This document shows, piece by piece, positions 60,172-63,785 of a DNA stretch of 64,000 bases; the stretch's first letter is position 1, and every line of letters starts with the position of its first letter. The notes beneath the pieces were generated by a model. That model was given only the letters and a program-made list of their open reading frames with translations. It ran no database searches and was not told the origin of the DNA. Source of the stretch: Cryobacterium sp. BB307 (GTDB lineage: Bacteria > Actinomycetota > Actinomycetes > Actinomycetales > Microbacteriaceae); contig NZ_JAANZA010000001.1 of assembly GCF_012274275.1 (NCBI RefSeq), positions 248,001-312,000 of the forward strand, written 5' to 3'. The translations under genes and the position numbers were made by a program.

Positions 60172-61542
60172 ATGTCCGCGGAGCAGGAAGTCACGGCTCG
60201 CACGAGCCTGTTCTCGCCGCGCTACTTCTGGACCACCATCGGCGCGAACGCGCTGGTCTTCCTCGGCGCGTTCGAGGCGCTCGCGGTCACCACCGTGATG
60301 CCGACCATCAGCCGGGAGCTGAACGGGCAGGCGCTGTACTCGGTGGCCTTCTCGGGGGCGCTCGCCGCCTCGGTGATCGGCATGGTCGCATCCGGGCAGT
60401 GGGCGGACCGGCGCGGCCCGTCGGTGCCGCTGATTGCCGCGACCATCGTGTTCATCGCCGGGTTGCTGGTGTCTGGGTTGGCGACCGACATGGGAGTGTT
60501 CCTGGTCGGCCGGCTGCTGCAGGGTTTCGGTGCCGGGGCGATCAACGTCGCGCTGTACGTGATCGTGGCGCGACTGTACCCGGCTGTGCTGCATCCGCGG
60601 ATCTTCGGCATGTTCGCGGCGGCGTGGGTGCTGCCGTCGATGATCGGTCCCCCGATCGCGGGCCTGATCGCCGACACCTTCAGCTGGCACTGGGTGTTCC
60701 TCGGCGTCGGCGGGCTGGTGGTGCTCGCCGGGGGTGCGGTTGTGCCCACGCTGTTCCAGCTGCGCTCGCTGCCGAACGGCGCGGGGGATCCGGATGCCGT
60801 GGGCCGGCGCGGCTGGGTCGCGATCGTGCTGTCGGTGGTGGTGGCCGCCGCGGTGCTCGCGATCAGCCTGGGCGGTGAGGCGGGCGGGGCGTACTCGTGG
60901 GTGATCGCCGCTGCTGCGCTCGCCATCGTGGTGGTGGCGGTGCGGCCGCTGCTGCCGCGGGGTGCGCTGCTCGTGCGGCGGGGTCTGCCGGCGACCGTGA
61001 TGCTGAAGGGCGTCGCGGCGGCGACGTTCTTCGCGACCGAGGTGTACTTGCCCTACCTGCTCACCGAGCGGTACGGGCTGGCGAGCTGGCTGGCCGGTCT
61101 CATCCTGACGGTCGGCGCGGTGTCGTGGGCGCTCGGCTCGGCGCTGCAGAGCCGCATCGGCGAGCGAATGGAGCACGCGGCGGTCCTGCGGCTCGGCTCG
61201 GTGGTGCTCGTGGTCGGGGTTGCGGTGCAGTTCCTGACGGCGTGGCTGGAGCTCTCGCCCGTCGTCGCTGCGGCCGGATGGTTCGTGGCCGGTGGCGGGA
61301 TGGGCCTGATCTACCCGCGCATGGGCACGCTCGTGCTCGGCCACTCGACCGAACGGGACCAGGGCTTTAACAGCGCGGCGCTGTCGATCGCCGACTCGGT
61401 GGGTGGCGCGACGGCGATCGCGTTCGCGGGGCTGATGTTCGCGGTTGGGCTGGGACTCGGCGTGAACCCGTTCGCCAGCGCGCTCGCGCTCACCGCGGTG
61501 ATTGCCGTGCTTGCGGTGCCGGTGGCGTTCCGGGCGCGTTGA
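60172..61542 (+). CDS. MFS transporter
   Basis: 456 residues with twelve or more membrane helices and the MFS motif A region GQWADRRGPSVPL. Resembles drug-proton antiporters of the EmrB/LfrA group, though short of 14 clear helices. ATG at 60172 lies seven bases after TAGCGT; GTG 60163 is the alternative. Substrate unknown. Confidence 0.87.
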   Translation: MSAEQEVTARTSLFSPRYFWTTIGANALVFLGAFEALAVTTVMPTISRELNGQALYSVAFSGALAASVIGMVASGQWADRRGPSVPLIAATIVFIAGLLVSGLATDMGVFLVGRLLQGFGAGAINVALYVIVARLYPAVLHPRIFGMFAAAWVLPSMIGPPIAGLIADTFSWHWVFLGVGGLVVLAGGAVVPTLFQLRSLPNGAGDPDAVGRRGWVAIVLSVVVAAAVLAISLGGEAGGAYSWVIAAAALAIVVVAVRPLLPRGALLVRRGLPATVMLKGVAAATFFATEVYLPYLLTERYGLASWLAGLILTVGAVSWALGSALQSRIGERMEHAAVLRLGSVVLVVGVAVQFLTAWLELSPVVAAAGWFVAGGGMGLIYPRMGTLVLGHSTERDQGFNSAALSIADSVGGATAIAFAGLMFAVGLGLGVNPFASALALTAVIAVLAVPVAFRAR

Positions 61543-61553
61543 CCGCGTCGTTG

Positions 61554-61642
61554 TTAACCCGTCTCAAGGAAATTCGCCCCCTCGAGGACGGATGGCGGGC
61601 ATCCGGGCACCCTCCGGTGAGAGTTTCCTTGAAACGGGTTAA
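61554..61642. repeat. Long-loop inverted repeat at the Nudix stop codon
   Basis: Arms TTAACCCGTCTCAAGGAAA (61554–61572) and TTTCCTTGAAACGGGTTAA (61624–61642) pair at 18 of 19 positions, 51-base loop. The right end provides the TAA stop of the Nudix gene (61639–61641). Confidence 0.8.
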
Positions 61643-62097
61643 GCGAGGCGGCGCTCGAGTTGGTCGAGCAGCGGGCGCTGGCTTTTCACCAGCTTTGCCC
61701 TGGCGCCATCGAGAGTGAACCAGCGAGCGTCGTCGATCTCCGGGAACTCTTGTATCCGTCCCGAGTGCGGCGGCCACTCGAGCGCAAAGGTGTTGCTTTC
61801 GATCCGGTCGACCTCGAAGTCGGCTTCCGCGGTGAACACGGTGATGATCTTCCCGGATGCCATCCGCACCTGCCCGAGGTGTTGATAGTCGGCATCCGGA
61901 GCGGGTGTACCGATCTCCTCCTCGAACTCGCGCATGGCGGCGGCGAGCGGTGCCTCGCCGTCGTCGTACAGGCCTTTCGGCACCGACCAGGAGGCGTCAT
62001 CCTTCTTCGCCCAGAATGGTCCGCCCATGTGCGCGATGAACACCTCGATGGCGGGCGTGCGGCGGTACAGCAACAGGCCCGCGCTGGTCTCAGCCAC
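61639..62097 (-). CDS. Nudix hydrolase
   Basis: 152 residues with a complete Nudix box: G-LYDDG-E-APLAAAM-REFEEEIG. Hydrolyses a nucleoside diphosphate linked to another group; substrate unknown. Resembles diadenosine polyphosphate hydrolase-like Nudix proteins (SWSVPKGLYDDGE). GTG at 62097 lies six bases after TAGGGT, so probably leaderless. Its stop is inside the inverted repeat. Confidence 0.92.
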   Translation of the reverse strand: MAETSAGLLLYRRTPAIEVFIAHMGGPFWAKKDDASWSVPKGLYDDGEAPLAAAMREFEEEIGTPAPDADYQHLGQVRMASGKIITVFTAEADFEVDRIESNTFALEWPPHSGRIQEFPEIDDARWFTLDGARAKLVKSQRPLLDQLERRLA

Positions 62098-62139
62098 GCG
62101 CCCACCCTACGACCACGGCCCCCGCCACACCTGAAGCCC

Positions 62140-62200
62140 CCGAGTTGCCCACTTCGGCCCCTGTTTCGGTCCTATTTCGGGGCCAAAGTGGGCAACTCGG
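62140..62200. repeat. TTGCCCACTT hairpin, copy 1
   Basis: Arms of 22 bases beginning CCGAGTTGCCCACTT pair at 21 positions around a 17-base loop TGTTTCGGTCCTATTTC. Located 65 bases before the DUF559-type gene. Confidence 0.85.
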
Positions 62201-62265
62201 TCGTGGGGCGAGAATGCTGTGGACAGTTGGACGCGGCGAAGGCGGGGGCGCGTCATCCTCGTGGC

Positions 62266-63021
62266 ATGCCTTCACAATTGCCGGAGCCGCTTACGGACGG
62301 ACCCTTCCGAGTCATGGATGGCGAGTACCACGGCGTGACGCCGAAGCGGTTACGCGGGCGCGACATGGATCGGTCGGTGTGGGGCGTCCGCGGCAGGGCG
62401 AATGAGGAGTCGATCCGCACCAGATGCGAACTTCTTGCGGTTCGGATGCCCACGGACGCGTTCTTCAGTCACACGACGGCAGCCCTTCTCCTCGGTATCC
62501 CGTTTCCGCCGAGCCTTGCCGAGCAACGGGCCATCCACGTATCGGTGCCGCGACCGCAGCGCGCACCGCACGCATCCGGTCTCAAGGGCCACAGTCTGAC
62601 CATCGATGGCGATACCGAACTCGTCTACGGTTCGACGCTTGTCCACACGAGTGCCGCACGCACTTGGTGCGACCTCAGCGGCATCCTGAAGCTCACCGAC
62701 CTGGTAGCGGCCGGCGACTTTCTGCTCCACTGGGAAAATCCATTGACCACAAGGGAGGAGCTGGGGAGCGTCGCTGGCCGAATGTCTCGACGTCGTGGAA
62801 GCCGAAACCGGGCCGCAGCGTTTCCACTCCTGAACGACCGGGCTGAGTCTCGACCGGAGTCCATCCTGCGGGTTCTCATTCACCTTGCGGGTCTGCCCAC
62901 GCCGAGGATCTACCACGAAGGCTGGTATGTCATGGAGCTGAATGCGGACGACTTGAGGAATCCCGAGGAATTGATCGCTCGCATCCGGCGCGTGCTTCTG
63001 AAGCGCGGATGGCGCCCCTAG
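62266..63021 (+). CDS. DUF559/AbiEi-type protein, apparently lacking the nuclease core
   Basis: 251 residues. The N-terminal part (AFFSHTTAALLLGIPFPP, HVSVPRPQRAPHASGLKGHSL) matches actinobacterial proteins called type IV toxin–antitoxin AbiEi-like or DUF559. Those usually continue from SRPES…AGLP to an EYDGDxH-type Vsr-like nuclease before ADDL…VR. Here AGLPTPRIYHEGWYVMEL runs almost directly into NADDLRNPEELIARIRRVLLKRGW, so about 50–60 residues including the acidic core seem deleted in frame. Flanked by two copies of the same hairpin. ATG 62266 is used; no ribosome-binding site is clear. Confidence 0.75.
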   Translation: MPSQLPEPLTDGPFRVMDGEYHGVTPKRLRGRDMDRSVWGVRGRANEESIRTRCELLAVRMPTDAFFSHTTAALLLGIPFPPSLAEQRAIHVSVPRPQRAPHASGLKGHSLTIDGDTELVYGSTLVHTSAARTWCDLSGILKLTDLVAAGDFLLHWENPLTTREELGSVAGRMSRRRGSRNRAAAFPLLNDRAESRPESILRVLIHLAGLPTPRIYHEGWYVMELNADDLRNPEELIARIRRVLLKRGWRP

Positions 63022-63029
63022 ACCCCCAT

Positions 63030-63080
63030 TTGCCCACTTTGGCCCCTGTTTCGGGCCGATTTAGGGGCGGAAGTGGGCAA
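63030..63080. repeat. TTGCCCACTT hairpin, copy 2
   Basis: Arms TTGCCCACTTTGGCCCC and GGGGCGGAAGTGGGCAA (15 of 17 pairing), 17-base loop TGTTTCGGGCCGATTTA, identical to the loop of copy 1 at 14 of 17 positions. Starts eight bases after the DUF559-type stop codon. Confidence 0.85.
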
Positions 63081-63137
63081 CTCGGCATTTGGGTGTGCAC
63101 ACGCGCGGGGCAGGGCGCGGGGCGCGGCAGGCAGGGG

Positions 63138-63785
63138 CTAGAGCAGCTTGCGCCCCAGCGCCCACGCGGTGAGCTCGTGGCGCGACGACAGCTGCAGCTT
63201 CCGCAGCACCGCCGACACGTGCGTCTCTACGGTCTTGATCGAGATGAACAGCTCGGAAGCGACCTCCTTGTACGCATATCCGCGCGCGATCAGCCGCATC
63301 ACCTCACGCTCCCGCGCCGACAGCCGGTCCAGCTCGTCATCGTGCACCGCCTGCTCACCGCTGACCGCGCCGAACGCGTCCAGCACGAACCCGGCCAGTC
63401 GCGGCGAGAACACCGCATCACCGCTCGCCACCGTCGCCACCGCGGCGCTCACCTCAGCCCCGGAACTGCCCTTCGTGATATACCCGCGCGCACCGGCCCG
63501 GATCACCCCGACGACATCCTCGGCCGAGTCAGACACGCTCAGCGCCAGGAACTTCACCCGCTCGAACAGGTCTGCCGAGCGCTTCAGCACCTCCGCACCA
63601 CCACCACCGGCTCCGCCCGGCAGGTGCACGTCCAGCAGCACCACCTCGGGCTCCAGCTCGGCGATGAGCCGCACCGCGGAGTCGACATCCTCCGCCTCGC
63701 CAACCACCTCGATCGCATCGTCCAGATCGGCGCGCAGCCCCGACCGGAAGATCGAGTGGTCGTCGACGATCAGCACCCTAGTCAT
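63138..63785 (-). CDS. NarL/LuxR-family response regulator
   Basis: 215 residues: receiver (VLIVDDHSIFRSGLRADL, Asp in VVLLDVHLPGG, Lys in YITKGSSG) and LuxR helix-turn-helix (LSAREREVMRLIARGYAYKEVASELFISIKTVETHVSAVLRKL). The receiver has a Gly-rich insert (GGAGGGGA) after the phospho-acceptor. ATG 63785 overlaps the kinase stop by eight bases, like the pair at 22 kb. Confidence 0.93.
   Translation of the reverse strand: MTRVLIVDDHSIFRSGLRADLDDAIEVVGEAEDVDSAVRLIAELEPEVVLLDVHLPGGAGGGGAEVLKRSADLFERVKFLALSVSDSAEDVVGVIRAGARGYITKGSSGAEVSAAVATVASGDAVFSPRLAGFVLDAFGAVSGEQAVHDDELDRLSAREREVMRLIARGYAYKEVASELFISIKTVETHVSAVLRKLQLSSRHELTAWALGRKLL

Follow-up and report, generated by a model that had tools for sequence, protein, structure and literature searches.

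The twin inverted repeats of the window (the whole 64,000-nt stretch of DNA analysed here) are read, with a probability of roughly 0.58, as ~60-bp targets of the protein encoded between them, in a REP/RAYT-like system that employs an unrelated nuclease. The upstream repeat (62140..62200, forward strand) is 61 nt long, with 22-nt arms that are 95% complementary and a 17-nt spacer, and is one of 27 copies in the window genome (G000). The downstream repeat (63025..63085, forward strand) is identical to it at 53 of 61 positions, and the two loops have 14 of 17 letters in common in a pairwise comparison. The gene between them (62266..63021, forward strand) runs from ATG to TAG and encodes a 251-residue protein, in which an AbiEi-like half is kept and the EDxHD core is missing. 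The 65-nt gap between the upstream repeat and the start codon (62201..62265, forward strand) presumably contains the promoter and ribosome site of the gene itself, and shows no sigma-70 consensus. These features bear out the first-pass annotation, which had described two ~60-bp hairpins with common arms and 14/17 identical loops, lying 65 bases before and 8 bases after the gene; the latter distance is that from the stop codon to TTGCCCACTT of the downstream repeat. Folded as single-stranded DNA, the upstream repeat reaches –24.2 kcal/mol (z –8.4) and the downstream repeat –19.1 kcal/mol (z –4.0), energies matched by 0 of 200 shuffles of either repeat.

The gene order at the locus is aminotransferase, two further genes, repeat, gene, repeat and response regulator, with a NUDIX protein and the LuxR-type response regulator as the neighbours of the gene. 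An Rfam search of 61500-63500 returned just microRNA-family matches, with scores far below the gathering scores, and these were taken as chance hairpin matches. Another inverted repeat, observed at 61554-61642 in the gap that separates the MFS gene from the NUDIX gene, has 27-nt arms that are 85% complementary and 35 nt apart. Its core has no second place in the window, and is found in eight of 234 loci, all from the same G000 stretch.

The window protein matches no Pfam or NCBIfam model, and its earlier designation as DUF559-type stands only by way of its relatives, some but not all of which reach the Pfam cut-off for DUF559. A library of defence models gave matches to AbiEi models only. An AF2 model of L042, the counterpart of the window gene in the congener G003, was obtained with a pLDDT of 93. 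Foldseek returned no PDB match for this model at E 0.001 or better. In a second structure comparison that followed, residues 193-297 matched I-Bth0305I (3r3p; Z 12.5, rmsd 3.0 over 96) and Vsr (1cw0; Z 10.1, rmsd 2.8 over 99), and residues 1-190 matched AbiEi (6y8q; Z 11.1, rmsd 6.2 over 176) and Rv2827c (Z 9.3, rmsd 3.7 over 179). A profile search of PDB sequences gave 3hrl (E 1e-4) and I-Bth0305I (E 0.038). E198, D230, H247 and D256 are identical in all 47 aligned relatives, which were chosen for coverage, and by our own reading, which fits the family name, would be the residues of the EDxHD motif. Intact relatives are therefore best described in terms of the models as predicted fusions of an AbiEi-like winged-helix DNA-binding half with an EDxHD nuclease of the Vsr/I-Bth0305I type. 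In the window protein, an in-frame deletion removes the stretch with D230, E241, H247 and D256; because the nuclease core has been lost in this way, the window copy is probably a relic. Its AbiEi-like half is still confidently predicted to fold. The counterpart in G004 ends early.

Relatives of the gene are present in all 8 genomes of the genus (G000 and the congeners G001-G007), and inverted repeats of 44-68 nt lie on both sides at 15 of the 24 gene loci inspected there. These repeats mostly differ from gene to gene, and several genes of the genus (for example L048 and L056) have no adjoining repeat. The left and right repeats of L041 and L042 are dissimilar, and the counterpart of the window gene in G003 and G006 is flanked by two repeats from different families. 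The order at this counterpart is aminotransferase, repeat, gene, repeat, ABC transporter in G004 and G006, and aminotransferase, repeat, gene, repeat, response regulator in G005; the repeat letters in G005 and G006 differ from those of the window repeats.

A collection of 84,980 species genomes was scanned with an alignment (A3) built from three intact relatives; 82 relatives were found via two conserved peptides, and the best 80 of the 82 loci were used. The starts of these relatives are profile-alignment starts rather than proven start codons, and 809 other genes of the same loci, called by a hexamer gene caller trained on the window, served as controls. At the 78 testable loci, a repeat was found upstream of 45 relatives, downstream of 43 and on both sides of 31, with a matched pair at 30 and no repeat at 21. 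The corresponding numbers for the 809 controls are 32 upstream, 69 downstream, 2 on both sides and 2 matched pairs. The association with such genes in other genomes, which the first-pass annotation had set as its test, thus holds at 30/78 versus 2/809 (Fisher p 2.4e-32, with loci that are not independent, Cryobacterium being over-represented and some genomes being metagenome assemblies). By distance from the genes, 27 repeats fall in the bin 100-150 nt upstream and 27 in the bin 0-50 nt downstream, compared to an expectation of <1 per bin from the background density of 0.159 per kb over 1.50 Mb.

In an independent count of repeat pairs with a score of at least 20, 30 bracket the gene and 5 lie elsewhere; among the latter, L087 brackets the gene by coordinates and L106 is the pair of a probable distant relative, so that L073, L085 and L123 remain. 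The two flanked controls are the L106 gene and an EamA transporter gene. At L106:3342-4377 (Nocardioides solisilvae), the gene between the matched repeats has an AbiEi_4-like start and, by eye, an E-I-D-G-x-x-x-H motif. Its protein scores 17.4 bits against the family profile, with a weak AbiEi_4 match below the cut-off, and the gene is probably a distant relative of the nuclease family. Matched pairs were also seen around an EamA transporter gene (L073:12439-13680) and a PALP/ACT enzyme gene (L123:16337-17690; threonine dehydratase-like), each with no nuclease gene inside; these two pairs are dispersed copies of other repeat families.

The two repeats of a locus resemble each other far more than those of different loci, with scores of at least 16 for 91% of 35 own-locus pairs and 2.2% of 4290 cross-locus comparisons. 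The 96 collected repeats fall into 45 clusters, a figure that hangs on the similarity cut and may split related families. Repeat and protein divergence are only weakly correlated (rho 0.15; 10 of 2000 permutations as high). A universal end tag was rejected, no tag being common to the 45 clusters; an outer CGAG is present in 16 of them, with a shuffle mean of 5.9, and the commonest 4-mer in shuffles reaches up to 17. Five plasmid records match the gene family, and of the three plasmid loci inspected, L232 has a matched pair, L233 an upstream repeat only and L234 a downstream repeat only; an annotated plasmid example with a matched pair is WP_054009319.1 from Arthrobacter sp. ERGS1:01. A single phage record gave a weak match. 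In a second group of relatives (L038, L045, L050, L054, L059), K replaces the H of the first group's nuclease motif, and repeats lie on both sides in 5 of 10 aligned members.

The window repeat family was detected at E 0.001 in G000 and, among the 60 genomes searched (G000 included), otherwise in G004 only, with zero copies in the 6 remaining congeners. Of the three G004 copies, one is solo and the other two lie on either side of the gene that corresponds to the window gene. In G000, the ten-letter core TTGCCCACTT occurs 47 times (23+24), compared to 4 times (3+1) for the reversed pattern; the 27 distinct ~61-nt copies all keep their core letters. Over these copies, mean identity is 88% in the arms and 49% in the loops (random, 31%); 9 of 22 positions are invariant in the 54 arms, and spacer length is 16 or 17 nt throughout the 27 copies, with largely free letters. 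The earlier proposal that loops as well as arms mark copies of one element is thereby qualified: given the loop average of 49%, the shared loop of the window pair marks a subgroup of copies and not the whole family. Solo copies, which the first-pass annotation had suggested looking for, exist in this family (25 in G000, 1 in G004) and in the three others described below. Placed on gene gaps from the same in-house hexamer caller, the 28 copies (these 26 and the two flanking ones of G000) lie in 16 convergent, 9 tandem and 1 divergent gaps, with 2 under an over-long reading frame; the solo copies account for 15 convergent, 9 tandem, 1 divergent and 1 unassigned. Convergent gaps make up 5 of 24 in the window as background.

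In all four repeat families that were compared across genomes, close copies were found only where the cognate gene was seen. Copies of the CCCGCGAG family number 5 in G003 and 4 in G006, two genomes that also contain its gene, and zero in 6 congeners; two of its solo sites are common to G003 and G006. The CCGCGAAACC family has 2 flanking and 5 solo copies in G003 and, at E 1e-8 or 1e-10, zero in the 7 other congeners; its gene, at era-leuA, was found in G003 alone among congeners. Three species with the cognate gene of the Cryobacterium family, which carries an upstream repeat only in all three, have 7 copies each. Nine further Cryobacterium genomes, selected for a retrieved gene that is accompanied by different repeats or by none of this kind, have 0-2 weaker places each. 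Since six of the eight sites of this family are common to the three species (one is in two, and one is unique), movement is rare.

The hisS-eno spacer of G003 holds a solo copy that the corresponding spacers of G006, G005, G002 and G000 lack; G001 and G007 have longer, unrelated spacers there, and in G004 one side only could be matched. Because the first four spacers are empty and the family is absent from those genomes, the simplest reading would be a gain in G003. No clean junction with a target duplication was found, the hisS-eno spacers having diverged too far to resolve one. The idea that the repeat spacer is target DNA was rejected, since by eye the spacer letters of this copy are not present in the empty sites. 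For the G000 copy at C2:632776, the spacers of G000 and G005 are not alignable. The G003 solo copy at C2:50420 is polymorphic between G003 and G006 and compatible with gain or loss; its direction is ambiguous because G005 carries at the matching place (L152) a 22-nt palindrome, CCGCGAGACCGCGGTTTCGCGG, which resembles a shortened repeat from a different family. The era-leuA cassette of G003 is absent from G006, G002, G005 and G000, which shows polymorphism only. This interval was seen to be variable: it holds the nuclease cassette in G003 (L211), a short gap in G002 (L208), and a regulator with other genes in G006 (L207), G005 (L209) and G000 (L210).

The conservation of the repeats was examined in two families for which arm pairing could be compared with shuffles. 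The arms have 276 paired cells in G000 (shuffles, 283.2 ± 4.3) and 189 in the Cryobacterium family (shuffles, 185.6 ± 6.9), and where they vary, the two arms vary independently; base-pairing is not the conserved property in either family. Orthologous Cryobacterium copies differ by 3.1% in the arms, 14.6% in the centre and 16.3% in the flanks, an arm constraint that is biased in that only copies still resembling the query were found. Because the arms are conserved by letter and the spacers by length, and because the arms vary independently, the unit resembles a duplex 60-bp target for a dimer more than it does a terminator or a hairpin held by base-pairing. Such a pattern is as would be expected of two half-sites read by a protein at a set distance, and not of a structure kept by pairing, and the best explanation of these sequences would be a target in which two ~22-bp half-sites enclose a spacer that is constant in length and free in its letters. 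Recognition of a single-stranded hairpin is not favoured, as arm substitutions do not keep pairing, and the word hairpin used earlier for these repeats is probably a misnomer for a double-stranded inverted-repeat target. It is highly improbable that the repeats are bidirectional terminators or RNA hairpins at gene ends, as their strong hairpin energies and their mostly convergent 3'-end positions might suggest: T tracts are found at 0 sites in 62050-63150, TTTT lies near either end of 2 of the 27 G000 copies, pairing does not exceed that of shuffles, and a terminator has no need of letter-level conservation over 27 sites. The repeats thus do not look like the plain terminators that the first-pass annotation had named as speaking against it.

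The main rival to a nuclease with its own targets is a protein that serves as a sequence-specific regulator or genome organiser, with the repeats as its sites under host selection and the nuclease secondary or lost. It takes this place because the solo sites are constrained, which a resident binding protein that serves the host would also account for, and because the sites persist, with the core letters kept in 27/27 copies, though the window protein retains the confidently folded AbiEi-like half without the nuclease core. We nevertheless consider it unlikely, since the gap types of the solo copies leave few at promoters, the repeat families are private to one genome or a few relatives, and the catalytic-type residues are invariant in the 47 aligned members. 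It is more doubtful still that the repeats are non-autonomous elements of another transposase and the nuclease gene a passenger or a settled homing-type gene. The matched repeats occasionally seen around unrelated genes, as at L073 and L123, and the failure to find target duplications would agree with this, but a matched pair surrounds only 2 of the 809 control genes, and the many dissimilar clusters found with one gene type, together with gene presence that matches the repeat family, call for a specific link. An AbiE-type toxin–antitoxin or anti-phage defence gene with operator palindromes, to which the AbiEi-like N-terminal half might point, has very little probability: the window gene has no AbiEii partner, its neighbours being the NUDIX and LuxR-type genes, and operators leave the downstream and solo copies unexplained.

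For the preferred reading, a nuclease whose own targets flank its gene, the following mechanism is proposed. A dimer of the intact protein would read one half-site per subunit and would cut or nick the DNA within the spacer. The cut target would then be repaired or transposed in a way that leaves copies at new places, mostly the 3' ends of genes. Every gene lineage would have its own target family, with gene and targets changing together. Since the nuclease core is gone from the window protein, dispersal of the repeats in G000 has probably stopped. The proposal of a new kind of small mobile system is partly supported, by the gene association, the solo copies and one lineage-specific copy; the window copy itself is without the nuclease core. 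We give about even odds to a broader joint reading, in which an actinobacterial, self-flanked class of AbiEi-EDxHD proteins would act as dimers that cut the spacer of a duplex ~60-bp target, spreading the target and sometimes the whole cassette, and in which this class would be large and undescribed, a convergent REP/RAYT counterpart based on an enzyme of the homing-endonuclease type.

Judged by the open-access literature covered, the arrangement would be new as a system, while an analogue is known for its general plan, in which an enzyme gene sits amid dispersed palindromes of its own. According to the accessible text of two papers (PMC3116915, PMC3733652), REP/RAYT systems (REPtrons) and TIRtrons, with their Y1 tyrosine transposases, have a single-copy enzyme gene between palindromes that belong to it, enzyme-specific repeat families, extragenic solo copies, two conserved blocks and a spacer conserved mainly in length. 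The resemblance to REP/RAYT noted in the first-pass annotation is borne out in architecture and behaviour, with own flanking repeats at 30/78 genes versus 2/809 controls (none at 21/78) and with dispersed, extragenic, enzyme-specific solo copies in four families. The system is not a REP/RAYT member, because its enzyme is unrelated, its repeats share no tag and their pairing is not preserved. Here the enzyme is a predicted AbiEi-like protein with an EDxHD nuclease and not a Y1 (HUH) tyrosine transposase. The repeats are ~60 nt long, form 45 clusters and lack a GTAG-type tag (outer CGAG, 16/45). In two families they show no compensatory changes beyond chance, whereas such changes are called common in the accessible part of the REPIN paper. 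The present system is found in Actinomycetota, a phylum unnamed in the available text of the GTAG-repeat paper, where 'actinobacteria' occurs 0 times. The words 'DUF559', 'nuclease' and 'RAYT' are absent from a 2025 REP survey (PMC12306157). Palindromes flanking such genes are not described in the titles, abstract openings and passages covered in an open-access library, those of DUF559 papers included.

The EDxHD homing endonuclease I-Bth0305I is reported, in the available text of PMC3943268, to dimerise on a target of nearly 60 bp. The intact relatives are predicted to share its nuclease fold and E-D-H-D residues, a catalytic set that the window copy is without, and by analogy the repeats, at 60-61 bp with a fixed spacer, would be consistent with such a dimer target. 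Unlike in that enzyme, the DNA-binding half is AbiEi-like, the gene was not seen in an intron, and the presumed target lies on both sides of the gene and recurs at other places in the genome. The same nuclease fold is that of Vsr and of Vsr-like DUF559 proteins, Caulobacter VsrA among them, and some members of the present family match DUF559. The accessible part of PMC12907096 connects VsrA with mismatch repair and a cytosine methyltransferase; gene-flanking palindromes such as those found here are unmentioned there. Several members show weak Pfam matches, below the cut-off, to the MTES_1575 Vsr-type REase domain; that domain is, in the available text of PMC3710099, part of a large HEPN fusion protein, whereas the present genes are short and flanked by repeats. 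Residues 1-190 have the modelled fold of AbiEi antitoxins and Rv2827c, from which the intact members differ by the attached nuclease domain and the window gene by having no AbiEii beside it.

If the preferred reading is true, many actinobacterial genes annotated as 'DUF559 / endonuclease domain-containing' would have no part in repair or toxicity but would be keepers of private palindrome families, and the REP/RAYT way of life would have been reached a second time, by an unrelated enzyme class. With the presumed target lying next to each gene, dozens of protein–target pairs, with diverged target families, could be read from genomes. The specificity code of EDxHD nucleases and the birth of dispersed bacterial palindromes would then be directly testable.

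The Cryobacterium copies L158-L184 have modular-looking arms, in which the block after an outer CGCGAGAG is TACGA or CGGAG. Some of them (for example L177, L179 and L182) combine one TACGA arm with one CGGAG arm, as if families had exchanged half-sites.
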